In this document: piece after piece, positions 2-34,834 of the stretch | How positions within the stretch are numbered: the first letter of the stretch is position 1 | Layout: every line of letters begins with the position of its first letter | Origin: Gammaproteobacteria bacterium | Lineage (GTDB): Bacteria; Pseudomonadota; Gammaproteobacteria; S012-40 | Direction of reading: 5' to 3' | Assembly: GCA_029883265.1 (NCBI GenBank) | Contig: JAOUJM010000008.1 | Coordinates: 1 to 50,007 of the forward strand | DNA length: 50,007 bases | The notes under the pieces: generated by a model | What the model was told of the DNA's origin: nothing | Database searches by the model: none | Seen by the model: the letters and a program-made list of their open reading frames with translations, nothing else | Position numbers and translations under genes: made by a program

Positions 2-268
2 AATGCTGACATGGAGGTTTTTTTTCAGCATATGGAAACGAGTCTATTGGATATCGGGTTTTTTAAACCACCGAATTACGAAAAATTACAACGCCGTTTG
101 CGCAAATTATTTTTCCGTGCACGGCCGGATAAAACCGAGTTGGATATTTTACATGGTGTTTTAAGTGCGGCCCAAGGTCGTAAGTATCAGTGGATGGCAC
201 AACAGGGGCTATTGAAAAACGACCCCGACGCACCTACATCAACTAAACATAAAAACAATCAAGGCTAA
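2..268 (+). CDS. trmJ: tRNA (cytidine/uridine-32-2'-O)-methyltransferase TrmJ, C-terminal part
   Basis: The last 88 codons of TrmJ, cut by the window start; the frame is open back to base 2, so the ATG at 11 is internal. TrmJ methylates the ribose of residue 32 in the anticodon loop of several tRNAs. The visible piece is the C-terminal helical region: an [14 protein letters not shown] segment followed by a basic LRRLFxRARP-type segment, both typical of gammaproteobacterial TrmJ. The SPOUT catalytic domain lies outside the window. cysE starts two bases after the stop, and trmJ-cysE-iscR is a common gammaproteobacterial gene order, which supports the call. Confidence 0.85.
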
Positions 269-270
269 TC

Positions 271-1056
271 ATGTTTAAAACCTTACGCGAAGACATTGCC
301 TGTGTATTTGAGCGTGACCCTGCAGCGCGAAATTGGTTTGAAGTATTAACCACCTATCCTGGTTTGCATGCGTTACAAGCCCATCGCTTGGCGCATGGAT
401 TGTGGCGGCGCAATCTTAAATGGCCAGCGCGTTTTGTTTCCACTATCGCCCGTTTTTTGACTGGTGTGGAGATACATCCTGGTGCGCAGATCGGTCGACG
501 TTTTTTTATTGATCATGGTATGGGCGTCGTTATTGGGGAGACAGCGGAAATTGGTGATGACTGCACGCTTTATCATGGTGTGACTTTGGGCGGCACCAGT
601 TGGGAAAAAGGCAAACGTCATCCGACTTTGGAAAATGATGTGGTTGTGGGGGCTGGCGCAAAAGTATTGGGACCGATTACTCTGCAAACCGGCGCTAGAG
701 TAGGATCGAATGCGGTTGTTGTGAAAAATGTGCCTGAGGGGGCGACGGTAGTTGGTGTTCCCGGTCGCACGGTAATGCGGGAAAAAGTGGAAACTGACGT
801 TAGTAAGCGCCGCGAAGCCATCGCTAAGAAAATGGGTTTTGATTCTTATGGTACTACTCAAGATATGCCTGACCCGGTAGCCCGTGCGGTCAATGGTATG
901 CTTGACCACATACACGCCATGGACCAGCGCTTGGAATCCATGTGTAAAGCGATTAAAGCACTAGGTGCGGAAATCGATGATTCCAAGCTACCCGATTTGG
1001 AAAACTGCGAAATTAGTAGTTCGGAAAGTGATACTAAAGACGAAAAACTAAGCTAG
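271..1056 (+). CDS. cysE: Serine O-acetyltransferase CysE
   Basis: Transfers acetyl from acetyl-CoA to L-serine, giving O-acetylserine for cysteine synthesis in the cytoplasm. The 261-residue protein has a helical N-terminal domain (about residues 1-65) and then left-handed beta-helix hexapeptide repeats (about 66-170) containing HPGAQIG, the [15 protein letters not shown] segment with the catalytic Asp/His region, YHGVTLGGT, and VVGVPGRTV. The N-terminal domain is shorter than in E. coli CysE (273 residues), while the C-terminus carries an acidic extension of about 70 residues of unknown role. Its position before iscR and two cysteine desulfurases places cysteine supply next to cysteine-derived sulfur use. 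It probably shares a transcript with trmJ, as only two bases separate them. Confidence 0.93.
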
Positions 1057-1210
1057 TATTGTTGTACAAAAATAATTCAAGCTTTTCCAATCATTGACTT
1101 GATAATTAAGTGGTATTTTGTCATCCTAGGAATATCTGAGGATAGTGCATGGGTTTTAGAATAAATCTGAAAATCTCCCAATTTTGCCCAGGGTTTAAGC
1201 GGTTATAAAG

Positions 1211-1238
1211 TTGACAGCTTTACTCAGTTACGTAAAAT
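1211..1238 (+). promoter_or_regulatory. Predicted sigma-70 promoter of iscR
   Basis: TTGACA at 1211-1216 and TAAAAT at 1233-1238 are separated by 16 bases, about 50 bases upstream of the iscR ATG. The 230-base gap between cysE and iscR holds no gene. An imperfect dyad ATCCT...AGGAT lies at 1123-1143. IscR commonly represses its own promoter, but I could not align a convincing IscR box here. Confidence 0.6.
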
Positions 1239-1286
1239 TAGCCTATGCATTTGGGTAGGGGTTAAAAACAAACAAGTGAGTGTATT

Positions 1287-1805
1287 ATGAGACTAACAAC
1301 AAAAGGCCGTTATGCGGTAACAGCAATGCTAGACTTAGCAATTAATTACGTCGACGGACCAATCACTTTGTCCGACATTTCGAAACGCCAAGGTATTTCC
1401 TTATCTTATTTGGAACAATTGTTTTCTAAGCTACGTAAACGTGGTTTGGTAGATAGTGCTCGTGGTCCAGGTGGTGGCTATCGTTTGAGCCGTGATGCCG
1501 GAGAAATCGCTGTTTCTGACGTTATTGCTGCGGTTGACGAAAGCATTGATGTAACCCGTTGTGGTGGTCAAGGAAATTGCCAAGACGATGGACGTTGCCT
1601 GACCCATGAATTATGGCAGGATTTAAGTCAGCGTATTTACAGCTTCCTAGATGGTATTACGCTTGGACAGCTGGTCGCTAATCGTGAAATTCAAATCGTT
1701 GCGATTAAGCAAAAAGAACGTGTTGCTCAGGAAGACGCTCAGCAAAAAGAAGCGGCGATGGCTTCTGAGTCTGCTGCAAATGAATCTGCGGTTGCTAGCG
1801 TTTAA
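1287..1805 (+). CDS. iscR: Iron-sulfur cluster regulator IscR (Rrf2 family)
   Basis: Transcription factor that senses Fe-S status with its own [2Fe-2S] cluster and controls isc genes. The 172-residue protein has the N-terminal winged helix-turn-helix of Rrf2 proteins ([18 protein letters not shown]; SxxYLEQLFxKLRKxGLV; GPGGGYRL) and the cluster loop with Cys92, Cys98, Cys104 and His107, exactly the ligand positions of E. coli IscR. The C-terminal tail after about residue 140 is rich in Glu, Ala and Gln and probably disordered. It has its own promoter upstream and, unusually, is followed by a good intrinsic terminator before the rest of the isc operon, so the downstream genes may receive only read-through or have their own promoter. 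Confidence 0.95.
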
Positions 1806-1816
1806 ATAGTATTCAG

Positions 1817-1842
1817 CCCCAGAATTGATTCTGGGGTTTTTT
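1817..1842 (+). terminator. Intrinsic terminator between iscR and the isc structural genes
   Basis: A perfect 8-bp stem, CCCCAGAA (1817-1824) with TTCTGGGG (1829-1836), closes a four-base TTGA loop and is followed by six T residues (1837-1842). It lies 11 bases after the iscR stop and only 16 bases before the likely GTG start of the next gene, so it could limit or regulate read-through from iscR. Confidence 0.8.
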
Positions 1843-1858
1843 GCAATTGGAGTTGAGG

Positions 1859-3004
1859 GTGATTTACCTAGACCATAACGCCACCACCCCATTGCATGAA
1901 GCCGTTTTATCAACCATGCTGCCTTTCCTAGGCCCGGAATATGGTAATCCTTCGAGTTTACACCGTTTAGGCCGTTATTCCCGCTCAGCTATTGAGACAG
2001 CGCGGGAGCAAGTAGCGGCATTAGTTAATGCTCATCCCTCCCAGGTGATATTTACAAGCGGAGGGACTGAAGCTAATAATTTGGCTTTAAAAGGTGGTTT
2101 GCACAGTTTAGATGTGCATCGATTAGCGGTAAGTGCGGTAGAACATGAGTCGGTTTTAGCCACTGCTCAGCAAATAAACAAAACATCGTGTCAACTTAGT
2201 TACATTCCTGTTGAAAAAAGCGGCTTAGTTGATTTTTCGCTTTATCAAGCTTGTTTACGCCAATTAAGCCCCAATTTAGTGTCCATCATGCTGGCAAACA
2301 ACGAAACCGGAGTGTTGCAGGATATAAAAGCCTTGCGTACGTTGGCAGAATCCAGTGTGTTTCACACGGATGCAGTACAGGCATTGGGTAAAATACCAGT
2401 CGATTTTGTTGAGTTAGGTGTGGATTTAATGAGTTTGTCTGCGCACAAGATCGCTGGCCCTAAAGGTTGTGGCGCGCTCATTGTTAATAAGTCTTTGAAA
2501 TTAAATGCTATTATTGATGGTGGTGGGCAAGAGCAAGGTTTGCGTGGCGGCACTGAAAATGTCGCAGCGATCGTCGGATTTGGCAAAGCTGCAGAGCTGA
2601 CCAAGCAAAATCTGGATAATCGAACTCAAGAATTGAAAATTTTACTCGACTACTTAGAACAAAACTTAGTAAAATTGTCAGGAATAGAACTAGTAGCCGC
2701 TAATACTCCTAGATTGCCTAATACTCTAATGTTCACAGTAGCAGGTATGGAAGGTGAAACCTTGTTATTAGCCTTGGATCAGGCGGGTATTGCGGTTGGA
2801 AGTGGCTCCGCTTGTGCAAGTCATAAACAACGCGCTTCCCATGTGTTACAAGCCATGGGAATGACAGAATTACAAGCGCAATCGGCCATCCGCATCAGTT
2901 TGGGGCCGGAGAATAGTCGAGCCGATATTGATCAGTTGATCAGCAGCTTGAGGCAACAATTACAGTTTAAAGCCAGTATGGGGGCTTTATTAAACGCAAA
3001 ATGA
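1859..3004 (+). CDS. Second cysteine desulfurase, NifS/IscS-like
   Basis: A PLP-dependent class V aminotransferase-fold enzyme that should release sulfur from L-cysteine as an enzyme-bound persulfide. I chose the GTG at 1859 because GGAG lies six bases upstream and the product (381 residues) then begins [11 protein letters not shown], as NifS proteins do; in-frame TTG codons further up overlap the terminator. Visible are the cofactor-binding [14 protein letters not shown] and SAVEHES segments, the Schiff-base lysine in [12 protein letters not shown], and the mobile-loop cysteine in [11 protein letters not shown]. It is clearly different from the classical IscS encoded next, so this operon carries two desulfurases. 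It may serve a separate acceptor such as tRNA thiolation or a specialised cluster target; that is inference. Confidence 0.88.
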
Positions 3005-3026
3005 ATTTGACTTGGGATGGAATAAT

Positions 3027-4244
3027 ATGAAATTACCGATTTATCTCGATTACTCTGCAACGACACCGGTTGACGCACGGGTGGCAGACAAAATGTGTGA
3101 ATATTTAACCATAGACGGTGGTTTTGGTAACCCGGCTTCTCGTTCACATGCATTTGGTTGGGAAGCGGATAAGGCTATACAAACCGCTCGTGAACAAGTC
3201 GCTGCTTTAATCAATGCAGATCCCCGTGAAATTATCTGGACCTCGGGCGCAACTGAATCCAATAATTTGGCTATTAAGGGTGTGGCGCATTTTAATAAGA
3301 AAAAAGGCAACCACATCATTACCTGTAAAACGGAACACAAAGCAGTTTTAGATACTTGTCGTCAACTTGAGCGTGAGGGCTTTGAAGTAACCTATTTAGA
3401 CCCCGAGACTAACGGACTAGTCGATTTGAAAAAACTTGAAGCAGCGATGACTGAGCAAACCGTGCTTGTAAGTATTATGCATGTGAATAACGAAATCGGC
3501 GTGATTCAAGATATTGATGCTATTGGTGAACTATGTCGTTCACGTAAAATTGTTTTTCACGTAGATGCCGCGCAAAGCGCGGGCAAAGTGCCGATCGATA
3601 TGCAAAATAATAAAGTCGACTTAATGTCATTTTCTGCGCATAAAATTTATGGACCTAAAGGTGTAGGCGCTTTATTTGTGCGACGCAAACCCCGAGTACG
3701 TTTGGAAGCACAAACCCACGGTGGCGGTCATGAACGCGGCTTGCGTTCTGGTACTTTGGCAACGCATCAAATCGTTGGTATGGGTGAAGCTTTTCGCATC
3801 GCCAAAGAAGAAATGGCAGACGATAATGCGCGCATTCATGCTTTGCGCGAGCGTTTGTGGAATGGCATTAAAGATATGGAAGAGATTTATGTGAACGGTG
3901 ATATGGATCGCCGGATTGCGGGTAATCTTAATGTTAGTTTTAATTTTGTTGAGGGCGAGTCCTTAATCATGGCCTTAAAAGATATCGCCGTGTCATCAGG
4001 ATCTGCATGCACTTCGGCAAGTTTGGAACCATCTTATGTATTACGCGCCCTGGGCCGTAGTGATGAGTTAGCGCATAGCTCGATTCGTTTTACCATGGGT
4101 CGATTCACCACCGAAGAAGACATTGATTACACCATTGGCTTAATACGCGATAAAGTGGACAAGTTGCGTGAATTGTCACCACTTTGGGAAATGTATAAAG
4201 ACGGTATTGATTTAAATTCGATTCAATGGGCGGCTCATCATTAG
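3027..4244 (+). CDS. iscS: Cysteine desulfurase IscS
   Basis: Main sulfur donor for housekeeping Fe-S assembly and many thiolation pathways. The ATG at 3027 follows a GGGATGGA ribosome binding site and gives a 405-residue protein colinear with E. coli IscS (404): [16 protein letters not shown] start, [33 protein letters not shown], Schiff-base lysine in [11 protein letters not shown], loop cysteine in [21 protein letters not shown], and the C-terminal [16 protein letters not shown] segment that normally contacts IscU. The IscU-contacting tail is thus kept although no iscU follows: iscA begins 12 bases after the stop. Confidence 0.97.
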
Positions 4245-7588: not shown

Positions 7589-8274
7589 TCAGTTTCTAAT
7601 TTGTCATAAATACTGCCGCTGAAAATAACTGATAGCAAGGCTTGAGAGTTTGGGTGTTTAATATTGCTTATCTCAAGTTGCTTAAACCCGGCTTGTTTAA
7701 ATAACGTTTCCCATGAGTCCATGCTTCGTGCATACCAGGGAATCGCTTGTGGCGAATTATTATCTAAAATATCCCAAGTTTCTATTTGCCACGAGTCTTG
7801 ATTGTTTGCAATGCTTTGAATGGTGGCTGGGTGAATGGTCTGCACAATAAGCCATCCTGATGGAGATAAAAGCCTTTTTGCATTAGCAAAAACATTCTCC
7901 ACCGATTGTTTGCCCAGTAATGAAAAATTACAAACCAATACATCAAATTGTTCGTTAAAATTAAATTGGTCTAGCGCTTCGTAGCTGATGATTTGGTAGC
8001 GGCCTTCTTGTTGTGAGGCGTGTTGGATCAGTTCAGCAATCGCATCTATGCCCAGGCAGTCGATGCCCTGTTGGGTTAATGCGCGGCTTAGCCAACCTTC
8101 ACCGCAACCAATATCTAAAAGTGTTTTGGGTTGTTTGCTTAAAACCGCATCAATGATAGCCTGATTGGTTGCAATCGCTCGACTTTCGATTTGCTGAGAT
8201 TGAATGATTTGCGTCCATGCCGATGCAATACGCTTCCATGATTCGATGACGTGTTGGTCCTTATAAACTGGCAT
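7585..8274 (-). CDS. Class I SAM-dependent methyltransferase, substrate unknown
   Basis: A 229-residue cytoplasmic methyltransferase with the Rossmann fold of the UbiG/UbiE superfamily. Motif I is LLDIGCGEGWLSRAL (about residues 53-67), an acidic residue follows in CLGIDAIAELI, and motif II/III resembles FDVLVCNFSLL and LLSPSGWLIVQTIHP. The substrate cannot be told from sequence. It lies 16 bases downstream of the P-type ATPase gene on the same strand and is probably cotranscribed with it. It is not normally part of the isc-ndk block and so marks the left border of inserted material. Confidence 0.75.
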   Translation of the reverse strand: MPVYKDQHVIESWKRIASAWTQIIQSQQIESRAIATNQAIIDAVLSKQPKTLLDIGCGEGWLSRALTQQGIDCLGIDAIAELIQHASQQEGRYQIISYEALDQFNFNEQFDVLVCNFSLLGKQSVENVFANAKRLLSPSGWLIVQTIHPATIQSIANNQDSWQIETWDILDNNSPQAIPWYARSMDSWETLFKQAGFKQLEISNIKHPNSQALLSVIFSGSIYDKLETD

Positions 8275-8290
8275 GGTTGTTTTGGTCCTT

Positions 8291-10984
8291 TCATTTGCTT
8301 GTCTTAAACTGCTGAATCCATTTGTGAAGTTCCATTATTACCAGCAATACCAATGCTAAGCCAAATAAATAAAACCATTGTTCAAAACTCACAGGTTGAG
8401 TATCTAATATAATTTGTAAGCCTGGAATATATAATGCTGCGATGTGAAATAGCTGCGCACCTAATGTGCCAAACATTAAAATTGGGTTGCTGAAAATGGG
8501 AATGGTAAATACCGAACGGTGTTCTGAGCGGGCATTGAATACTTGTACGTTTTCGAACAAAACCATAAGTAATAATGTTAGGTTGCGTGCAGATTCAAGT
8601 TGATAGCCTTGGCTGAGAAGAAATTGAAAAACGGCAAAAGCGAGTATGCCAACGCTTAGTGCTGAAATAACACAGCGTTCGATCATTAAGCGATTAAAAA
8701 TAGTTTCCTTCGGTGAGCGCGGTGGTTTCTTCATTTCATCACCTTCGCCTGGTTCGAATGCAAGGCCAACATCCTGAATACCCTGGGTGACTAAGTTTAG
8801 CCACAACAATTGAGCGGTGGTAAAAGGCATGGGCGAGTTTGTAGCGATTGCCAATAAAAAGAAAAAAACTTCCGCAATACCTGTGGAGATCAATAAAAAA
8901 ATTACCTTGCGTACATTGCTATAGGCGATTCGACCCTGTTTGATACCTTCCACCAAGGATGCAAAGTTATCATCGGTTAGAACTAAATCTGCAGATTCTC
9001 GCGCAACATCGGTGCCCTTAACGCCCATGGCAACACCTACGTGAGCTTTTCGTAGGGCAGGAGCATCATTTGCGCCATCGCCAGTGACGGCAACAAATTC
9101 ACCCGTTTCACTGAGCACATTAACGATTTGCAATTTCTGCGTGGGTTCAACGCGTGCAAAAACACTAGCTTTAATGATTGCATCCTTGAGCTGCGGTGAG
9201 TTACTTTCCGTGAGTTGACGTAATTGTTTTCCAGTAACGACCTGTGTATTTTTGTCACATATACCAAGATCGCTGGCAATTGCGACCGCTGTGATTGGGT
9301 GGTCGCCCGTTAACATAGCAACACGAATTCCAGCTGCTTGGCACTGCTGTATGGCTTGTCGCGCATTTTGGCGCGGCGGATCAATCATGCCAACCAAACC
9401 TAAAAATGTGAAATTATTTAGGTCGTTCTCGTTTAATTGTTTGAATTCGCCGGTGTGGTAAGCGATAGCTAAAACCCTATAGCCTTGTTCTGCCATTTTA
9501 ATCGCAGCATTCTCGATTTGAAGCGGATTAATTGCTTGGGTATGGTGGCCGCTAGTCATATTGCTACACATAGCCAGAATTTTTTCAGGTGCACCCTTAA
9601 CGGAAATTTGTTGTTTATGTTTTAATTGATGTAGCGTCGCTGCGAATTGGCGCTCTGGTTCAAACGCAATTTGGTCAATTAACGCAAAATCCTGATTAAC
9701 TTCTTTTGCAACTAGTCCGATTTTCTGTGCCATGACGAGTAAAGCTACATCAACTGCATCACCACTATGATGAATTTGATGCTTGTCAAAATAAAAACTG
9801 CCTTCATTGCAGAATATCGATGTGCGTGCCAAATTAATTAATAAGTCACCGGTTTCTATAGGTGCTTGTGCAGGAATGTGAATTTCACCCTGGGTATTAA
9901 TGCCTTGTCCGTGTACCTCCAAAAGTTGATTCGGTGGCAACCATATTTTTTTAACCGTGAGCTCATTGACGGTCAAGGTGCCGGTTTTATCTGAAGCGAT
10001 GTAAGTGCAGGAACCAAGGGTTTCGGCAGCGACAAGGCGTCTGACAATAACATTGTTTGTTGCCATGTGACGCATGCCAACTGCGAGCGCAATGGTTATC
10101 GCTACCGGCAAGCCTTCAGGGATTGCAGCGACCGCAAGTGCAATCGCAACCAGAATTACGCCAAATAGTTCCTGGCCATGCCAAGTGGCCACTAAAACAA
10201 TAATCACGCTAATCGCAAGAAAACCGATGGCAATTCTTTTTGTAAAGCGCTCCATGCGTTGAATTAGTGGAGGCACTTCTTTTTTACCTAAGGTAACCGC
10301 TTTAGCGATTTCTCCTAAAGCGGTATGTAAACCTGTCGTGATCACAACTGCAATGGCGCGTCCACGAATGAGCAAGGTGCCTGCGAATAGCATATTCTTT
10401 CGGCCTGCCAAATCGGTGTCGACGCTAATAATCTTTTCCGCTTGTTTTAACTGCGAAAAAGATTCGCCGGTTAACAACGATTGGTCAACTTCAAGTTTGT
10501 CGGCTTGTAGCAAACGTAAATCCGCGGGCACTTTGTCACCCGATTCAAGTATGACGATATCGCCCGGTACTAGTTGAGTCGCAGGGATTTCACTAATTTC
10601 ATTATTTCGTTTAACACGAACCTGATGCGCCACCATTTTTTGTAAAGCAGCCGCACTTTTTTCGGCGTGATATTCCTGGATAGCGCCTATGCTGGCATTC
10701 AAACACAAGACAAAAATGATAAATCCGGCGTCTATCCATTCTTGAACAACGAGTGATAACAATGCAGCGGCTAAAAGAATATAAATCAGTGGGCTTTTAA
10801 ACTGACTGAAAACAATAAAGCCAATGCTTTTACGCTTGGCTTGGGGAAGTTCATTGGTGCCAAATTGTTGTAAGCGTTCAGCGGCTTTTTCTATGCTTAA
10901 ACCGGACGGACTGGTTTCTAAAATTGCCAGGATTTGTGCTTGCTGCAAGTGATGACAATTAGAAAGTGCCTTGGTATCGATCAT
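8291..10984 (-). CDS. Cation-transporting P-type ATPase (type II, calcium-pump-like)
   Basis: An 897-residue inner-membrane ion pump. N-terminal cation-ATPase domain, actuator motif LTGES (about residues 171-175), M4 motif AAIPEGLPVAITIALAVG (about 286-303), phosphorylation site SDKTGTLT (Asp332), hinge TGDGANDAPALRKA, and C-terminal transmembrane helices with LLWLNLVTQGIQDVGLAFEPGE (M6). Order and length fit the calcium/SPCA-like group. The M6 position that is Asp in SERCA (NLVTDG) is Gln here (NLVTQG), so the ion could be other than calcium. Start ATG at 10984 gives MIDTKALSNCHHL. No metal-responsive regulator adjoins it. Confidence 0.88.
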   Translation of the reverse strand: MIDTKALSNCHHLQQAQILAILETSPSGLSIEKAAERLQQFGTNELPQAKRKSIGFIVFSQFKSPLIYILLAAALLSLVVQEWIDAGFIIFVLCLNASIGAIQEYHAEKSAAALQKMVAHQVRVKRNNEISEIPATQLVPGDIVILESGDKVPADLRLLQADKLEVDQSLLTGESFSQLKQAEKIISVDTDLAGRKNMLFAGTLLIRGRAIAVVITTGLHTALGEIAKAVTLGKKEVPPLIQRMERFTKRIAIGFLAISVIIVLVATWHGQELFGVILVAIALAVAAIPEGLPVAITIALAVGMRHMATNNVIVRRLVAAETLGSCTYIASDKTGTLTVNELTVKKIWLPPNQLLEVHGQGINTQGEIHIPAQAPIETGDLLINLARTSIFCNEGSFYFDKHQIHHSGDAVDVALLVMAQKIGLVAKEVNQDFALIDQIAFEPERQFAATLHQLKHKQQISVKGAPEKILAMCSNMTSGHHTQAINPLQIENAAIKMAEQGYRVLAIAYHTGEFKQLNENDLNNFTFLGLVGMIDPPRQNARQAIQQCQAAGIRVAMLTGDHPITAVAIASDLGICDKNTQVVTGKQLRQLTESNSPQLKDAIIKASVFARVEPTQKLQIVNVLSETGEFVAVTGDGANDAPALRKAHVGVAMGVKGTDVARESADLVLTDDNFASLVEGIKQGRIAYSNVRKVIFLLISTGIAEVFFFLLAIATNSPMPFTTAQLLWLNLVTQGIQDVGLAFEPGEGDEMKKPPRSPKETIFNRLMIERCVISALSVGILAFAVFQFLLSQGYQLESARNLTLLLMVLFENVQVFNARSEHRSVFTIPIFSNPILMFGTLGAQLFHIAALYIPGLQIILDTQPVSFEQWFYLFGLALVLLVIMELHKWIQQFKTSK

Positions 10985-24819: not shown

Positions 24820-25839
24820 ATGATGGCGTTTTTAGCCGAATACGGCATGTTCTTTTTGAAGACCATCACCATAGTGGTCGCGATTATTATGGTCGCTCTT
24901 GGTTTGTTTTCCGTGGGCGCGCGCGGCAGAGATGAGCGTTCCAGTCGTATTCAATTGAAGAAATTAAATCAATACTACGACGATATGACCTTTGAAATTC
25001 AGCAGGAATTAGCGCCAAGAAAACAACAGAAGAAATTATTAAAAGCACAAAAAAACAAGCTTAAGCACGAAGGTAAGGTAGAAAAAAACGAATCACGAGT
25101 ATTTGTGATTGAGTTTCACGGTGACCTTCGTGCTAGTGCTGTAAGCCATTTACGGGAAGAAATAACAGCAATCCTATTAGTGGCGAATGAAAATGATGAA
25201 GTATTTGTCAAAGTTGAAAGTCCGGGTGGTGTAGTCTTTGGGTATGGTTTGGCAGCCTCTCAGTTGCAACGGATTCGTGATAAGAATATTCGTTTGACGA
25301 TTTCTGTGGATAAGGTGGCGGCCAGTGGTGGTTACATGATGGCCTGTGTGGCGGATCATATTATTGCAGCGCCATTTGCCATTGTCGGTTCCATTGGTGT
25401 GGTCGCAGAAATGCCCAATATTAATCGTTTTCTGAAAAAACATGATGTTGATATCGAATTGCATACTGCGGGTGAATATAAACGAACCTTGACTGTCTTG
25501 GGTGAAAATACAGACAAAGCAAGGGAAAAATTTCGTCAGGATTTGCAAGACGTGCATGACTCATTTAAGGAGTTCATTCAGCATAACCGACCTAATCTTG
25601 ATGTAGAAAAAGTAGCGACAGGCGAGCATTGGTTGGCAAGCCGTGCCTTGGATTTGGGTTTGGTTGATGAGCTTAAAACTAGCGACGATTATTTATTAGC
25701 GAAAAAAGATGAAGCGGAAATTATTCAAATCAAACACAGCAAAAAACGTCGTCTCGCAGAAATAATTAATGATCAAGCGGCCAAACTTTTTTCGGCAAAA
25801 AAAATGCTTGATGATAACCCATATAATTATTTGCGTTGA
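24820..25839 (+). CDS. sohB: SohB-type inner-membrane protease (peptidase S49)
   Basis: 339 residues. N-terminal transmembrane helix (about residues 8-30), basic cytoplasmic linker (RKQQKKLLKAQKNKLKHEGK), then an S49 protease domain of the signal-peptide-peptidase/SohB type: VFVIEFHGDL, VESPGGVVFGYGLAASQLQRI, nucleophilic serine in KVAASGGYMMACVADHI, and the general-base lysine region HTAGEYKRTLTVLGENT. C-terminal SohB tail present. AAAGGAAAAC precedes the paired ATG codons. E. coli SohB has 349 residues, so the protein is full length. Confidence 0.92.
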   Translation: MMAFLAEYGMFFLKTITIVVAIIMVALGLFSVGARGRDERSSRIQLKKLNQYYDDMTFEIQQELAPRKQQKKLLKAQKNKLKHEGKVEKNESRVFVIEFHGDLRASAVSHLREEITAILLVANENDEVFVKVESPGGVVFGYGLAASQLQRIRDKNIRLTISVDKVAASGGYMMACVADHIIAAPFAIVGSIGVVAEMPNINRFLKKHDVDIELHTAGEYKRTLTVLGENTDKAREKFRQDLQDVHDSFKEFIQHNRPNLDVEKVATGEHWLASRALDLGLVDELKTSDDYLLAKKDEAEIIQIKHSKKRRLAEIINDQAAKLFSAKKMLDDNPYNYLR

Positions 25840-26892: not shown

Positions 26893-29800
26893 ATGTTTCA
26901 AGGACGAACCGGGGGTAGTCGTTGGCAAATTTGTGTGCGTAATACAAAGTTATTAGTAGCTTTGTTATTATGCTGCGCGTTTTTGCTTGGTGCGACAAAC
27001 ACCTTGGCCGCAACTAGCGATCTTCGCCAAGCATTGAGTGAGCATAATGCAAATATGCTTACGGGCGCGCATGCGGAATTGGCCTGTGAAGCCTGTCATC
27101 AACAATTACCCGCGACAAAATTGAATCCCGCTTGCGAAACCTGTCATCAAGCTTCGCAAAAACATTTGGCCTTAAAAACACAAGTCTGTGCGGATTGTCA
27201 TGCCCCCTCAGGATGGGGTCTGGCGCAAATTGATCACAGTTTATTAAAGCAGACCTGTGTAAGTTGCCATGATAATGCTCAACTCGGTGCTAAACCCATT
27301 ATTCATATTCCTAGCAGTGATGCATGTGAACAATGCCATGTTACGTCTACCTGGGCGAGTGTATTACCATTCGAACACAGCCAAACGGCACAAGTTTGTG
27401 TGAGTTGTCATGATGGTCAGTTGCTAAACGCAAAACCAGCTAAACATATTGCCAGCAATAATGATTGTAATAGCTGCCATTACACCGATAATTGGTCTGT
27501 ACTAGCGCGCATGGATCACCAAGCGGTTAAGGGCGCATGTAATACTTGTCATAATGGCAGTCCCTATACCGGTTTGCCTGCGCTACACATTAATGTTTCG
27601 GGGCAAGATTGCGAACAATGTCATTTAACCCAAGCCTGGTCCCCTGCACAACTGGGTATTGCGCAACTTAATGTTAGTGATTTGCAACTATTAAAAAGTA
27701 CCGGTGTTAGTGCGCGTTTATTTGATCACGGTACAATCGTGAATAACTGTACCCAGTGTCACGGCGTTACGGCTATTGGCAAGCCCAATGGGCACGTGGC
27801 ATCAACCGATAATTGTGAATTTTGTCATTCAGTACGTACCTGGCTACCCGTTCGTCGAGTCGATCATTCGCAAGTTATCGGTATTTGCACTGATTGTCAT
27901 AATGGTACGTTGGCGGCCATTGCGGTGGGTAAACCGCCAGGGCATATTCCGAGTACGGACAATTGCAATGCTTGTCACTCGCCTACGTCGTGGTTACCTG
28001 TGCAAACCGTGGATCATAGTGAGGTGATTGGTGGTTGTTATGATTGTCATAATGGCGTCATCAGTCGAGGCAAAAAACAAGGGCATATAGCAACAACCAA
28101 TAGTTGCAGCGCTTGTCATGTGGTGTTGGCATTTTTACCCGTTAGAGTTGTGGATCACGCTCAAGTGATTGGTAGTTGTGTGAGTTGTCATGATGGAATT
28201 ATTGCTGTGGGCAAATCACAAACACATATTCCTAGTTCTGATTTATGTGGTTCTTGTCACTTAACCATATCCTGGCGTGCAGGTATTGCTTTTGATCATA
28301 GTAATGCGATTGGTAGCTGCGTCAGCTGCCACGATGGTTTGACTTCTACGGGAAAACATCGCACTCATATTGCCAGTTCTGATGAATGCCAGTTCTGTCA
28401 TAATAATCTAGTATGGCGCGATATTATTGCTGTCGATCATCAACATGTGATTGGTGAATGTATTAGCTGCCACAATGGCATCGTGGCGATTGGTAAAAAC
28501 AAAGGCCATGTTCCCACCTCAGATAAATGTGATGCTTGTCATATTACTGCGATTTGGAAACCCGTGACGAATGTTGATCATAATGAAGTGTTCGGTGTAT
28601 GTAGCGCTTGTCATAATAACCGTCTAGCCGTAGGTAAAAGTATTGATCATATCGCAACGAATTTGGAATGTGATTTATGTCATACCGTGCGAACCTGGAT
28701 AGGTGTATCGATCGCACAAATTCATGAAGGTGTGAGTGGTGATTGTTTCAGCTGTCATAACGGCGTTTCAGCCACCGGTAAAAATCGTACGCATATTGTC
28801 AGTAGTGATGTCTGTGAGGCGTGTCATATTGTTTCTAATTGGTTATTGGTCTCGGTTGATCATAGCCAAGTCGGTGATATATGTTTTGAATGCCACAATG
28901 GTTTAGTTGCCGGAGGAAAAAACTTCGGTCATATCCCCAGTACTAACGTCTGTGAAGCCTGCCATACAAATGTAACCTGGAAACCTGTGACCGGTGTTGA
29001 CCACGCGCAAGTAACCGGTGCTTGCTTTGGTTGTCATGATGGTTCGATTGCGCGCGCGAAAAATCCGGATGTGCATATTCCCACAAGCAATGAATGCGAA
29101 GCCTGTCATTCAACCGTAGTTTGGATTCCTGCGCGTTTTGTTGATCACACAGAAGTCATCGGTGAGTGTATTGCTTGTCATGATGGTGGATTTGCTCGTG
29201 GTGTGAATTTAACGCATATTAATTCGAGCAATTTGTGTGGTAGTTGTCATACCACATTTGCGTGGACACCAGTCATGCGGGTTGATCATTCACAAGTTCC
29301 GACTGATTGTGTGTCCTGTCATAACGGTTCCATCGCTTCAGGTAAAAGTGCGAATCATATTCCTACCTCGGATTTGTGTGGTGATTGTCATAGCACAAAA
29401 GCCTGGACGGCATCGATTCAATTTGATCATAGTCAGGTCACTTCTTCCTGTGTGGTGTGTCATAACGGTGTATCCGCTTCAGCGATTCCGCCTTATCATA
29501 TTCCAGTAACCGAAGAGTGCGGTGCTTGTCATGCGACCAGTGCTTGGCGACCTGTATTGCAAGTGGATCACAATCAAGTAGTAGGCGCCTGTGAAGTTTG
29601 TCATAACGGTACTCGTGCCGTGGGCAAAAGCCAAAAACATATAGCTACACTGGATCAATGTGGTGCTTGTCACGAAGCGTTTCCTGTGCCTTGGACGTCG
29701 CCACTTGCTGTGGATCACACCTTGGTTTTGGGTAAATGTTTTTCCTGTCACGACGGCGTAGTCGCTATGACAAAATCATCATCACATATTCCCACCTCAA

Positions 29801-31914
29801 ATGATTGCGAGGCTTGCCATGTCGCGTCCCCCGTTCCTTGGACAACTGTTGCAGCAGTGGATCATAGTCAAGTGCAAGGTGTATGCGTGACCTGTCATAA
29901 TAATAATCCTTGGATTGGTAAAACCCCTGATCATATTAATACCAGCGATGTGTGTGAAGCTTGTCATTCGACCGTGGTTTGGGCGCCCGCTATTGTGGTG
30001 GATCATGTAGAAGTGAATGGTGCTTGTAATACTTGTCATAATGGCAATCCTTGGATAGGGAAGAATCCTGAGCATATTCTTTCAAGTGACGCATGCGAAA
30101 CCTGTCACTCGACAAACACATTTGCACCTGCGATTAAAGTCGATCACACACAAGTGCAAGGTGTGTGTGTGAGTTGCCACAATAACAATCCATGGGTAGG
30201 AAAACACGCCACACATATTAATAGTTCGGATGAATGTCAGGCCTGCCACTCCCAGGGAAATAATTGGGTACCGATTTACGTGGACCATACTGAGGTCATT
30301 GGATTGGATAATTGTGGCGCGAATTGTCATAACGGCGTTATTGCACAAGGCAAAAACGCTGGCCATATTTTAAGTTCTGAACAATGCGGGGCTTGTCATT
30401 CCACTGAAACCTGGGCACCGCATGTGTTAGTCGATCATGATCATGTGCAAGGCTTATGCATTAGCTGCCATAACAATAATCCTTGGATAGGAAAAAGTGG
30501 GCAACACATTAATACCACTGATGATTGTGAGAAGTGTCATTCCACCGTGCGCTGGATGCCGGCGATTTTAGTTGATCATGATTTTGTTGTCGGTGAATGC
30601 GTGAGTTGTCACAATAGCAAAATTGCCAATGGTAAATCATCGAATCATCCACCTACCTCTGATGTCTGTCAGGCCTGTCATACCCCCGCCGGCTGGGTGC
30701 CTGTAGTGGTGGTTGATCATGCCGAGGTTATTGGTAATTGCGCCGGTTGTCATGGCGGTGGTTTTGCACAATCAGATAAGGGTCCCTTGCACATAAATAG
30801 TTCTGAATTGTGCGATAACTGTCATTCAACCAATGCTTGGACGCCAGCGATCACTGTTGATCATACTCAAGTGATTGGTGTGTGCGTGAGCTGTCATGAT
30901 GGAACTACTTGGGTTGGAAAATCCAGTACGCATATTGCGAGTTCGGAAATATGTGAGCTTTGTCATTCGACGAATACCTTTGTGCCAGCGATTAAAGTTG
31001 ATCACAGTCAAGTGCAAGGTGTGTGTGTGAGCTGTCATGATGGTTCGCCTGCCACACCTAAACACGCGACTCATATATCGAGTTCAGATGAATGTGATGC
31101 CTGTCATTCGACTAATTCATGGGTACCCGTGGTGGTGGTTGATCATTTGTTTGTGATTGGTGAATGTATTCAATGTCATGCAGCGGGTTCACCAAATAGG
31201 GGTAAAAGTAGTGCGCACGTCAACACAACCGACGACTGTAAATTCTGTCATTCAACAACGTTTTGGGAACCAACAATACGGGTAGACCATAATTATGTTT
31301 TAGGTGCGTGTTTTGACTGTCATAACAATAGTTTGGTCTCGGGTAAAAGTCCGAGTCATTTGAATACCACGAATTTTTGCGAGGCTTGCCATGCGCCATT
31401 ATCGTGGTTCCAGGTCATCTTTATGGATCATAACGAAGTCAATGGTACCTGCGTTTCATGTCACAATAATCAGTTGGTGCCGGGTAAAACCCAAACTCAT
31501 ATACCAACCACCGATAGTTGCGAAACCTGTCATGCAACAACGTTCTGGGCTCCGGTTATTCGTATGGATCACAACCAAGTGACCGCAAGTTGTATTACTT
31601 GTCATAATAATCAAATTACTACGGGTAAGCACACACAACATATAAGGACTAGTGATATTTGTGACGCCTGTCATGTGACGACAACTTGGGTGCCGTTTAT
31701 TGTGGATCATAATGAAGTCGTTGGTATTTGCGAAAGTTGTCACTTACCTCCACCTCCTTCACACTCGGCGCTGAATATTACTGGTGGTTGTGATGGCTGT
31801 CATACCACCACCACCTGGATACCGGCTATCCGGCCGCTGCCAACTACCCCATTAGGCGTGACTCCATTGGATGTCATTAATCCAAGCGGAGTGGATTTAT
31901 TTATTCGCCATTAA
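26893..31914 (+). CDS. Giant secreted multiheme c-type cytochrome (66 CXXCH plus one CX3CH)
   Basis: 1673 residues. Sec signal peptide with core LLVALLLCCAFLLGATNTLA (mature start near residue 40). My hand count gives 66 CXXCH motifs from Cys65 to the motif starting at Cys1633, plus CGANCH (CX3CH) at residues 1141-1146: 67 possible covalent hemes, about one per 24 residues. Most lie in a two-heme repeat of about 50 residues: HIxSSDxCxxCHxTxxW, then PxxxVDHxxVxGxC, then xxCHNGxxAxGK. The His of HI and of VDH could be the distal ligands, giving bis-His hemes. No membrane anchor, porin domain or lipobox is visible, so the product is probably periplasmic or secreted. Such chains work as electron wires or stores. 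The C-terminal 35 residues lack hemes. Not recognised as a named cytochrome; c-type maturation genes are not in the window. Confidence 0.9.
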   Translation: MFQGRTGGSRWQICVRNTKLLVALLLCCAFLLGATNTLAATSDLRQALSEHNANMLTGAHAELACEACHQQLPATKLNPACETCHQASQKHLALKTQVCADCHAPSGWGLAQIDHSLLKQTCVSCHDNAQLGAKPIIHIPSSDACEQCHVTSTWASVLPFEHSQTAQVCVSCHDGQLLNAKPAKHIASNNDCNSCHYTDNWSVLARMDHQAVKGACNTCHNGSPYTGLPALHINVSGQDCEQCHLTQAWSPAQLGIAQLNVSDLQLLKSTGVSARLFDHGTIVNNCTQCHGVTAIGKPNGHVASTDNCEFCHSVRTWLPVRRVDHSQVIGICTDCHNGTLAAIAVGKPPGHIPSTDNCNACHSPTSWLPVQTVDHSEVIGGCYDCHNGVISRGKKQGHIATTNSCSACHVVLAFLPVRVVDHAQVIGSCVSCHDGIIAVGKSQTHIPSSDLCGSCHLTISWRAGIAFDHSNAIGSCVSCHDGLTSTGKHRTHIASSDECQFCHNNLVWRDIIAVDHQHVIGECISCHNGIVAIGKNKGHVPTSDKCDACHITAIWKPVTNVDHNEVFGVCSACHNNRLAVGKSIDHIATNLECDLCHTVRTWIGVSIAQIHEGVSGDCFSCHNGVSATGKNRTHIVSSDVCEACHIVSNWLLVSVDHSQVGDICFECHNGLVAGGKNFGHIPSTNVCEACHTNVTWKPVTGVDHAQVTGACFGCHDGSIARAKNPDVHIPTSNECEACHSTVVWIPARFVDHTEVIGECIACHDGGFARGVNLTHINSSNLCGSCHTTFAWTPVMRVDHSQVPTDCVSCHNGSIASGKSANHIPTSDLCGDCHSTKAWTASIQFDHSQVTSSCVVCHNGVSASAIPPYHIPVTEECGACHATSAWRPVLQVDHNQVVGACEVCHNGTRAVGKSQKHIATLDQCGACHEAFPVPWTSPLAVDHTLVLGKCFSCHDGVVAMTKSSSHIPTSNDCEACHVASPVPWTTVAAVDHSQVQGVCVTCHNNNPWIGKTPDHINTSDVCEACHSTVVWAPAIVVDHVEVNGACNTCHNGNPWIGKNPEHILSSDACETCHSTNTFAPAIKVDHTQVQGVCVSCHNNNPWVGKHATHINSSDECQACHSQGNNWVPIYVDHTEVIGLDNCGANCHNGVIAQGKNAGHILSSEQCGACHSTETWAPHVLVDHDHVQGLCISCHNNNPWIGKSGQHINTTDDCEKCHSTVRWMPAILVDHDFVVGECVSCHNSKIANGKSSNHPPTSDVCQACHTPAGWVPVVVVDHAEVIGNCAGCHGGGFAQSDKGPLHINSSELCDNCHSTNAWTPAITVDHTQVIGVCVSCHDGTTWVGKSSTHIASSEICELCHSTNTFVPAIKVDHSQVQGVCVSCHDGSPATPKHATHISSSDECDACHSTNSWVPVVVVDHLFVIGECIQCHAAGSPNRGKSSAHVNTTDDCKFCHSTTFWEPTIRVDHNYVLGACFDCHNNSLVSGKSPSHLNTTNFCEACHAPLSWFQVIFMDHNEVNGTCVSCHNNQLVPGKTQTHIPTTDSCETCHATTFWAPVIRMDHNQVTASCITCHNNQITTGKHTQHIRTSDICDACHVTTTWVPFIVDHNEVVGICESCHLPPPPSHSALNITGGCDGCHTTTTWIPAIRPLPTTPLGVTPLDVINPSGVDLFIRH
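27085..31803 (+). repeat. Tandem coding repeats of the two-heme unit
   Basis: From the first to the last heme motif the DNA is a degenerate tandem array with a period of about 150 bases (one two-heme unit), some 33 units. Most copies have drifted, but two stretches, 30094-30249 and 30952-31107, are equally long (156 bases) and encode almost the same protein (STNTFxPAIKVDHxQVQGV core), suggesting internal duplication. Units near 29890-30510 share an unusual NNNPWIGK or NGNPWIGK linker in place of the common NGxxAxGK. Confidence 0.85.
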
Positions 31915-31975: not shown

Positions 31976-34834
31976 TTGAGTCAGTTCTACACTAAATTCA
32001 AAACAATCAAGGTTTTGTTTCCCCGTGGGAGAAGGATTTTGTTACGTGGGCTTATCGGCATCGGATGCTTGATTATCTGTTCATTTGCGGTACAAGCAAG
32101 TGACCCGCTTATTAAAATTGGCGTGCTAGCACATCGAGGCAAAGAAAATGTCAGCGATCGCTGGACTCAGACCGCAAAATATCTCAGTGAGAAAATACCT
32201 GGGTTCCAATTTCAAATATTCCCTCTCGATTTACAAGAGATGAATACCGCCGTGGCATTAAGCCAAGTGGATTTTGTTTTAACCAATCCTAGTCATTATG
32301 TGAGTCTAGAAGTGCGAAACGGTATTAGCCGTATTGCGACGCTTAAGCGTAACGAAGAAATGAATTTGCATAATCTTTTTACCGCCGTCATTTTTACACG
32401 AGCCGATCATCCAAAAATTGAAACTTTAGAAGATGCGAAAGGTAAACATTTTATTGCGGTTAATGATCAGGCATTTGGTGGCTATCAAATGGCTTGGCTT
32501 GAATTTAAACGCAGAAATATTGATATCAAGCAGGATTTTAGTCGAGTGACATTTAGTGGTTACCCGCAGGATAAAGTCGTATATGCGATCAAGAACGGAT
32601 TGGCGGATGTCGGTACGGTGCGTGCTCGAACCTTGGCGCAAATGATTAAAGAAGGTTTGGTTAAAGCAAGTGATTTTCGCATTCTGGGTAGTCGCCATGT
32701 GGCTGGTTTTCCGTTTGTGCATAGCACAGACTTATATCCCGAATGGCCTTTAAGCAAATTAAGCCACACTAAAACCGGTTTGGCCGAACAAGTCGCTGCC
32801 GCATTAATGAATATGCCCTTCGATCATCCAGCCGCACGTTCCGCTGGTTTAGCCGGCTGGACTGTACCCATGGACTATAAACCAGTGCATGAAATGTTGC
32901 GTGAATTAGGCGTCGGTCCTTATGCCTATAAACGGGAAATCAGTTTGGTGCAGGTTTGGCGCAAATATAAAGTTTGGGTCTTATTGGGGCTGACAGTTTT
33001 AATCGCTTTAAGTGTTATTGCGCTTCTATTGAAGAATATGAATAAACGTCTTGCGACCGCCAAGATAAGTTTAGAAGCAGAAATCGAACATCGTAAACAA
33101 GCCGAGCAGGAATTATTTGAAACAAATGAAAAAGCATTGGTGGTTTTGTCTTCAATTAGTAATGCGGTCATTAGTACCAACCCACAGGGTTTAGTAACCT
33201 ATGTCAATCCTGTTGCGCAAAAATTCATTGGTGATCATGTTCGAGCGTTGGTAGCCCTCAGTTTGTCAGACCTATTCACATTTGTTGATAGTCGCACGGA
33301 AGAAGAAATCAATGACCCTGTTGCCGAATGTATTGGCGCGAATTCCACCTTGCATTATGAAAACTGGTTAGTTGCAATCAATCGACAAGGCAGGGAAATT
33401 GAAGTTGAACTTAGTGTGTCGCCCATGCGCGATCAAGTCGGTAAAATTGTGGGTACGGTTTTGGTGATGCAAGACGTTACCGAAATGAAAAAATTACAAC
33501 AACAAATGCAATACCAAGCGCACCATGACTTTCTCACGGGTTTATTAAATCGACATGCGTTTGAACAATACTTAGCAAGTGCTTTGGTTAACGCACATGA
33601 GTTGCGTCAGGATCATGCCTTGCTTTATATGGACTTGGATCGTTTTAAACTAGTCAATGATAGTTGTGGGCATGCGGCAGGTGATGCGTTGTTAAAAGAA
33701 ATTACCGCCGAAATGCAAACCGTGATTTCAAAAGATGACGTATTTGCGCGCCTGGGCGGTGATGAGTTTGCGGTTCTATTATGTGATTGTGATTTAGATA
33801 ATGCCAGTCAGGTTGCAGAGCGCATTCGTTATGTCGTGGAGTCATTTCGTTTTGTTTGGGAACAAAATACGTTTGATCTTGGCGTGAGCATTGGAGTGAT
33901 GGCGCTTACCCGGGAAAACGACACGATAAACGAAGTGCTAAGTACGGCTGATAATGCGTGTTATATTGCCAAAGAACGTGGGCGCAATAAAGTTTATGTG
34001 TATTCACCGGGCGACCGAGTAATTGCGCGTCGTTATGGTGAAGTGCAGTGGATGCATCAAATACGTGATGCCTTGTTGAATAATCGTTTCTATTTATATG
34101 CGCAACCCATTCAAGCACTCAATTCAGATGCAGCACCCCAGGTGCATTGGGAGTTGCTGGTGCGTTTACGTCACGAAAACGGGAGCTTGATTGCACCAAA
34201 AGAGTTTATTCCTGCGGCAGAGCGTTACCATCAAATGCCCGCATTGGATCGTTGGGTGACTGAACACGCAATTCAACTATTAAGCGAGCATGATGTTGCG
34301 CAGTCAAATAAATTGCGTTGTTTTATTAATCTCTCAGGGCAGACGTTGAGTGACGGTCAGTTTTTACGCTTTGCTATTGATACTATTTTGCGTTATGGCG
34401 TGGAACCCGGTTCGTTGGTATTTGAAGTTACAGAAACGGCAGCAATTGCTAATTTCCAAAAAGCGGCGCGTTTGATTTCAGTGCTGCGGGAAATGGGTTG
34501 TCGTTTTGCGCTGGATGATTTTGGTACCGGCTTGAGTTCGTTTGCCTACCTAAAACAATTGCCAGTGGATTATATAAAAATAGATGGTTCGTTTATCCAA
34601 CACTTGGTGGAAGATGAGGTCGCTTGTGCAATAGCGCAATCGATTTCTGATATTAGTCACACCATGGGTGTACTTTGTATTGCAGAAACCGTAGAAAATG
34701 AAGCCGTGTTACAAAAAGTTCGGCAGATTGGGTTGGATTACGCACAAGGTTTTTGCATTGCGCAACCCGTACCGCTAGAGGTTGCAGTTAGTGAGCTGGC
34801 CCAAGCTGAGCATGATATGGCGGAAGAGGCCTGA
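31976..34834 (+). CDS. Membrane cyclic-di-GMP protein: PhnD-like sensor, PAS, GGDEF and EAL domains
   Basis: 952 residues. A TTG at 31976 is the only practical start because a stop lies eight codons upstream; a later TTG near 32009 is an alternative. Order: signal/anchor (about residues 20-41), periplasmic PhnD-type solute-binding domain (about 45-310; IKIGVLAHRGKE, DFVLTNPSHYVSL), transmembrane helix (about 330-352), coiled segment, PAS domain (about 380-500), GGDEF (RLGGDEFAVL, near 592) and EAL (WELLVRLR near 724, DDFGTG near 846, KIDGSF, ETVENE). GGDEF is intact; EAL reads ELL but the metal-binding Glu is kept, so both synthesis and hydrolysis of c-di-GMP are possible. PhnD-like domains also sense oxyanions, as in TtrS. 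It lies 61 bases after the giant cytochrome and may share its transcript. Confidence 0.88.
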   Translation: MSQFYTKFKTIKVLFPRGRRILLRGLIGIGCLIICSFAVQASDPLIKIGVLAHRGKENVSDRWTQTAKYLSEKIPGFQFQIFPLDLQEMNTAVALSQVDFVLTNPSHYVSLEVRNGISRIATLKRNEEMNLHNLFTAVIFTRADHPKIETLEDAKGKHFIAVNDQAFGGYQMAWLEFKRRNIDIKQDFSRVTFSGYPQDKVVYAIKNGLADVGTVRARTLAQMIKEGLVKASDFRILGSRHVAGFPFVHSTDLYPEWPLSKLSHTKTGLAEQVAAALMNMPFDHPAARSAGLAGWTVPMDYKPVHEMLRELGVGPYAYKREISLVQVWRKYKVWVLLGLTVLIALSVIALLLKNMNKRLATAKISLEAEIEHRKQAEQELFETNEKALVVLSSISNAVISTNPQGLVTYVNPVAQKFIGDHVRALVALSLSDLFTFVDSRTEEEINDPVAECIGANSTLHYENWLVAINRQGREIEVELSVSPMRDQVGKIVGTVLVMQDVTEMKKLQQQMQYQAHHDFLTGLLNRHAFEQYLASALVNAHELRQDHALLYMDLDRFKLVNDSCGHAAGDALLKEITAEMQTVISKDDVFARLGGDEFAVLLCDCDLDNASQVAERIRYVVESFRFVWEQNTFDLGVSIGVMALTRENDTINEVLSTADNACYIAKERGRNKVYVYSPGDRVIARRYGEVQWMHQIRDALLNNRFYLYAQPIQALNSDAAPQVHWELLVRLRHENGSLIAPKEFIPAAERYHQMPALDRWVTEHAIQLLSEHDVAQSNKLRCFINLSGQTLSDGQFLRFAIDTILRYGVEPGSLVFEVTETAAIANFQKAARLISVLREMGCRFALDDFGTGLSSFAYLKQLPVDYIKIDGSFIQHLVEDEVACAIAQSISDISHTMGVLCIAETVENEAVLQKVRQIGLDYAQGFCIAQPVPLEVAVSELAQAEHDMAEEA

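Follow-up and report, generated by a model that had tools for sequence, protein, structure and literature searches.

The window, by which we mean the whole stretch of 50,007 nucleotides that was analysed (on contig C199 of its genome), contains a giant gene for a multiheme cytochrome, with the following features and neighbours.

24820 to 25839, + strand: sohB protease gene, the upstream neighbour, also present in genome G008 (57% identity).
26893 to 31914, + strand: giant multiheme c-type cytochrome gene, 1673 amino acids, putatively a paralogue of PCC3-type extracellular multiheme cytochromes, no porin adjoining.
26893 to 27012, + strand: predicted Sec-type export signal, residues 1 to about 40, from hydropathy and reading by eye, cleavage site approximate.
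27046 to 27159, + strand: N-terminal signature LTGAHAELACEACH..CETCH, by alignment a reduced form of FDHxxTGFPLxGxHxxxxCxxCH.
27085 to 31803, + strand: array of 67 heme motifs, mostly with alternating spacing of 23 and 24 residues, about 33 two-heme units.
30313 to 30330, + strand: the sole CX3CH site, CGANCH, residues 1141-1146, kept in the G008 homologue.
31729 to 31914, + strand: C-terminal cap CESCH...HSALNITGGCDGCHTTTTW...PLP, common to PCC3 multiheme cytochromes of the same family.
31976 to 34834, + strand: PhnD-PAS-GGDEF-EAL signalling protein, 62 bp downstream, not adjoining the G008 homologue.

The open reading frame of the cytochrome begins with ATG, with GGGGA a few bases 5' of it. 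Promoter and terminator scans near the gene did no better than shuffled sequences, and the 415-bp leader gave no Rfam match to a riboswitch. On recount the 1673-residue chain holds exactly 66 CXXCH motifs and one CX3CH motif, the very figures of an earlier note on this DNA. Shuffling its own residues yielded 1.05 CXXCH motifs on average and 5 at most, and the other frames in the window have no more than two each. Only three cysteines lie outside the heme motifs, all within the first 28 residues. An AXA-type cleavage site comes after a hydrophobic stretch at about residues 13-42 (hydropathy and reading by eye), and an equivalent export signal is found in the G008 homologue. The hydropathy scan listed no further hydrophobic stretch. 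The view, also taken in that note, that this is an exported giant c-type cytochrome is supported. Reading the N-terminus by eye, we saw no canonical lipobox.

The heme motifs are densely packed (25.0 residues per heme). A histidine lies in the spacer ahead of 66 of the 67 sites, in 61 cases exactly seven residues before the first cysteine, and the H-X6-CXXCH pattern is invariant across 69 aligned 8-heme segments from relatives. Since such histidines precede nearly all sites and the pattern does not vary among relatives, bis-His ligation of nearly every heme is likely. Given this dense and regular row of predicted bis-His hemes, a heme wire or electron reservoir, as had been proposed, is the natural reading.

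A frameshift or a collapse of the repeats in a short-read assembly, an artefact that had been raised as a concern, was ruled out by the low identity between repeats and by an independently assembled homologue. Collapse is implausible because the longest exact direct repeat within the gene is 23 bp and the two-heme units are at most about 71% identical in DNA (mean 0.55). The homologue (L048, on contig C13 of G008, another genus of the same family) has 1686 codons from stop to stop, 49-54% identity to the window protein and again 66 CXXCH motifs and one CX3CH motif. It is syntenic, lying downstream of the same sohB, which we use as a synteny marker with no functional link implied; the housekeeping gene order and sohB also fit a gammaproteobacterial origin, although no 16S gene was detected in the metagenome-assembled genome.

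The two proteins also share their irregular spacers, namely the ninth (46/40 residues), the tenth (22), the 23rd (25), the 37th and 45th (26) and the last two (23 and 20/19). A homologue in a third genus (L051 of G002) has 67 CXXCH motifs and keeps three of these spacers, the ninth (long), the tenth (22 residues) and the 23rd (25); its orthology is less certain because identity is 43-44% and the locus is not syntenic. The first motif is differently placed in the three homologues, so that the register is clear for 66 sites and approximate for the first. When units were compared one by one, the best match fell on the main diagonal for 17 of 65 units with G008 and for 12 of 65 with G002, with about 2 expected at random if best matches are spread over same-phase units; with a 50-heme paralogue 9 of 65 best matches lined up, at a different offset. 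We consider the shared irregular spacers to be better evidence of register than this best-match test. As judged from these alignments, heme number and spacer pattern are conserved across three genera, which is a new observation. With three sequences only, the fixed number could be due either to selection on length or simply to repeats being gained and lost slowly. The gene could in principle be a paralogue that drifts and is dispensable, maintained or lengthened by duplication of repeats and with a heme number of no specific role, as repeat proteins easily change length and PCC3 cytochromes span 10 to 85 hemes (PMC5566968, PMC10734462). We hold this to be very improbable, since all ligand motifs are intact and both the number and the irregular spacers are kept at 43-54% identity.

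In profile searches, Pfam Cytochrome_C7 (PF14522) was matched over nine stretches with 240.3 bits, above its gathering cut-off of 24.8. The decaheme profile TIGR03508 (DmsE/MtrA) reached 216.1 bits against a curated cut-off of 192.2, but only as a sum over 11 partial stretches of the 1673-residue chain; the NCBIfam label DmsE was rejected, as this is not a decaheme protein, in which one domain of some 260 residues would be expected. The OmcA/MtrC profile TIGR03507 gave 31.5 bits, below its curated cut-off of 209.3. A profile search with the repeat unit, a kind of check which the earlier note had suggested, matched among PDB chains, with others, the solved structures of MtrC (E ~1e-10), MtrA (6r2q_A, 4e-10) and MtrF. 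We take 6r2q_A to be MtrA of the MtrCAB complex and its source label, 'cystathionine beta-synthase', to be an error. The filament chains of OmcS, OmcZ and OmcE were matched neither by phmmer nor by profile searches of PDB chains, and OmcS, on which the note had based its estimate of length, is thus the wrong yardstick. These filaments are comparable in their long extracellular heme chain, which is the hypothesised function of the window protein too; however, they are polymers of small subunits with 4-8 hemes, whereas here there is a single giant chain. Shewanella MtrA and MtrC match the repeat profile and have bis-His hemes in a row and electron transfer across the envelope, features that are predicted for the window protein too. 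They differ in having 10 hemes and an operon with the porin MtrB, no homologue of MtrB or PioB being found in the genome of the window; moreover, MtrC has beta domains, and Pfam detects none in the window protein.

The best whole-protein matches outside the own family are two multiheme cytochromes encoded beside PCC3 porins (L091 and L092), which are 41-42% identical to the window protein over about 1650 residues. A PCC3 cluster encodes a porin, an extracellular multiheme cytochrome, a periplasmic one (median 21 hemes) and an inner-membrane protein of 300 residues with WX3HX13H motifs (He et al. 2017, PMC5566968), and the function of PCC3 is itself still unverified in the literature (PMC12442390). 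The extracellular cytochromes have 22-39 residues per heme (PMC5566968), a range that includes the 25.0 found here, and their N-terminal signature is FDHxxTGFPLxGxHxxxxCxxCH. By sequence, the window protein is a member of this extracellular-cytochrome family, because repeat type, heme density and both N- and C-terminal signatures match, a membership that the earlier note had overlooked. It shares with PCC3 extracellular cytochromes the same two-heme repeat type, few residues per heme, a Sec signal, both terminal signatures and comparable heme numbers; it differs in that its gene has no adjacent porin, 21-heme periplasmic cytochrome or inner-membrane protein.

As to size, the note had placed the protein in the extreme tail, above all for a gammaproteobacterium, a claim that the comparison with other cytochromes does not support. 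PCC3 cytochromes with 63 hemes in the gammaproteobacterium Amphritea atlantica (PMC5566968) and 85 in the alphaproteobacterium Agromonas oligotrophica (PMC5566968; 85-86 when PMC7096707 is included) have been published. In our survey of the class, 12 of 369 genomes had a match at E < 1e-100. Among the loci examined, L091, from a finished genome (G046), lies within a complete PCC3 cluster and has 69+1 motifs in a frame of 1721 codons, and L092 (G048) is a frame of 1833 codons that has 73 motifs and lies near a porin homologue. Sixty-seven hemes is thus a large number but not a record, either generally or within the class. DSOUD_0664 of Desulfuromonas soudanensis (69 hemes, PMC4914508) and a cytochrome of ANME-2c (86 hemes, PMC9012536) have a similar or larger number in a single chain; both belong to other lineages, and S-layer and pectin-lyase-like domains are present in the protein of ANME-2c. 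The 24- and 49-heme cytochromes of Burkholderiales, for which a wire or capacitor has been proposed, are likewise densely packed (22-23 residues per heme), but they lie in a porin cluster, have fewer hemes and vary in number between close relatives (PMC7399161), whereas the type described here has 67 in three genera.

The 50-kb window contains no porin-like match, no periplasmic cytochrome of about 21 hemes and no other multiheme reading frame, and the profile of the inner-membrane protein matches only contigs C506 and C154 of the genome, not C199. Porin, periplasmic cytochrome and inner-membrane protein are also absent from the stretches examined around the two homologues. The gene therefore stands alone, detached from conduit genes, which had not been recognised before. 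Downstream, the gene at 31976-34834 (+) encodes a periplasmic domain of phosphonate-binding type fused to PAS, GGDEF and EAL domains; it is probably not part of the cytochrome system, because it is not conserved beside the G008 homologue.

The conduit genes are found elsewhere in the genome. C506 carries a full PCC3 set: an inner-membrane protein with both WX3HX13H motifs, a 21-heme cytochrome, a protein of 781 residues that has a TPR-like part and whose C-terminus is a barrel-type ending in phenylalanine, a protein of 151 residues, a 43-heme cytochrome and a lipoprotein-like frame that the contig end cuts off and that has at least 32 hemes. A second, truncated set lies on C154, and further members of both the family and the class show the same arrangement of PCC3 genes. 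The terminal signatures of the window protein are those of the PCC3 cytochromes of its genome, while the 21-heme periplasmic subunit is only about 22-24% identical to it. Some further observations concern the C506 locus (L012). The second giant cytochrome beside the 43-heme gene (2-3184, - strand) has repeats closely resembling those of this neighbour and, with an LFSC lipobox read by eye, is apparently a lipoprotein. The frame at 7610-9955 (-) and its relatives appear to be the PCC3 porin of this lineage, with a TPR-like N-terminal part ahead of the barrel, and the small 151-residue protein beside it resembles the N-terminal domain of the porin; neither matched a Pfam porin family.

MtrA is a rod-like wire, and the heme spacing in OmcS or MtrA is 0.8-1.0 nm per heme; the chain described here would measure roughly 50-65 nm if straight. 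The rod-like form of MtrA is documented (PMC5566968), and AlphaFold models of smaller PCC3 cytochromes are long and mostly linear (PMC10734462). Our AlphaFold2 model of a 16-heme segment had a mean pLDDT of 57.5, a low confidence that makes it unusable for shape. An 8-heme segment reached a pLDDT of 83.5, and neither Foldseek nor VIA matched this model to a fold in the PDB, a weak test for proteins with little secondary structure. The length bears on the main rival, a periplasmic reading, in which the protein would be a reservoir or lateral wire running parallel to the membranes. It would buffer electrons, such as those released by sulfur oxidation, that are exchanged between the inner membrane and either PCC3 porins or terminal oxidases. 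A Sec-type signal with no lipobox and a gene with no porin partner would agree with this, and a capacitor role has already been proposed for such cytochromes (PMC7399161, PMC10734462). However, the termini resemble those of the extracellular class, unlike the 21-heme periplasmic subunit, and a straight rod of 50-65 nm is too long to fit across the periplasm; we regard a periplasmic location as unlikely.

We favour, with a probability of roughly 0.6, the reading that the protein is a detached PCC3-type paralogue, a rod that both conducts and stores electrons and is located at the outer membrane or outside it, where it would extend PCC3 conduits. The chain would be exported by Sec and loaded by Ccm (system I) with up to 67 c-type hemes. 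It would fold as a repeated two-heme unit, each heme being held by CXXCH and by the histidine seven residues before it. In one continuous row the hemes would form a wire and, with a capacity of up to 67 electrons, also a reservoir. The site at or beyond the outer membrane, suggested by the relatives, might be reached by type II secretion. There the rod, presumably straight, may dock on or extend the conduits encoded elsewhere in the genome, its putative partners, made of an inner-membrane b-type protein, the 21-heme periplasmic cytochrome, the TPR-barrel porin and the 43-heme cytochrome. This explanation is supported by the PCC3-like repeat, density and termini, the whole-protein matches beside PCC3 porins, the invariant H-X6-CXXCH pattern, the profile matches to MtrC and MtrA, the two PCC3 loci, the mostly linear published models, the register of the 67 motifs in three genera, and CcmF and GspD, both of which are encoded in the genome; it is weakened because no conduit genes adjoin, the 16-heme model is of low confidence and the 8-heme model has no fold match.

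The several giant paralogues in this genome and in dsr-bearing relatives, the presence of gspD and the detachment of the gene from a conduit operon would also be compatible with a self-standing extracellular cable, released and assembling with itself or with the 50- and 43-heme cytochromes into a conductive matrix or intercellular link. This seems improbable, as there is no sign of polymerisation, no relation by sequence to OmcS, OmcZ or OmcE, and no assembly genes beside the cytochrome gene.

As for the physiological setting of the extracellular rod that we prefer, the genome encodes RuBisCO and a dsr operon with dsrEFH, dsrC and a dsrL-like gene, a set that points to sulfur oxidation. Within the family, dsrA exceeds the cut-off only in G000, G001, G002 and G008, and cytochromes with more than 40 motifs are found in exactly those four. 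This tally covers 13 genomes, two of the four positives coming from one genus, and the co-occurrence is a correlation, not a conclusion. The stand-alone homologue group with one heme number in three genera, in genomes that have both PCC3 conduits and oxidative dsr genes, hints at a possible coupling of sulfur oxidation to extracellular electron exchange in this lineage. Going further, one could imagine in autotrophic sulfur oxidisers a stand-alone 67-heme cable, its length fixed by selection, that docks on PCC3 or links cells. Taken as a whole this is a speculative and rather unlikely proposal; if true, it would mean an extracellular cable of defined length in bacteria whose electrons are exchanged with solids or with partner cells or organisms. 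The literature (PMC7096707) still asks whether single chains with over 60 hemes are produced, receive all their hemes and are put to use, and for this question the homologue group offers a clean target.

Other multiheme proteins were also noted. On C102 (L014, 6001-9858, - strand) a 1285-residue protein has an unusual fusion of an RCC1-like beta-propeller with a multiheme region of 20 motifs; a protein on C91 (L017, 5107-6792, - strand) combines a PKD domain with 16 motifs, and a 1338-residue protein on C147 (L015, 2380-6396, - strand) has 14 motifs.
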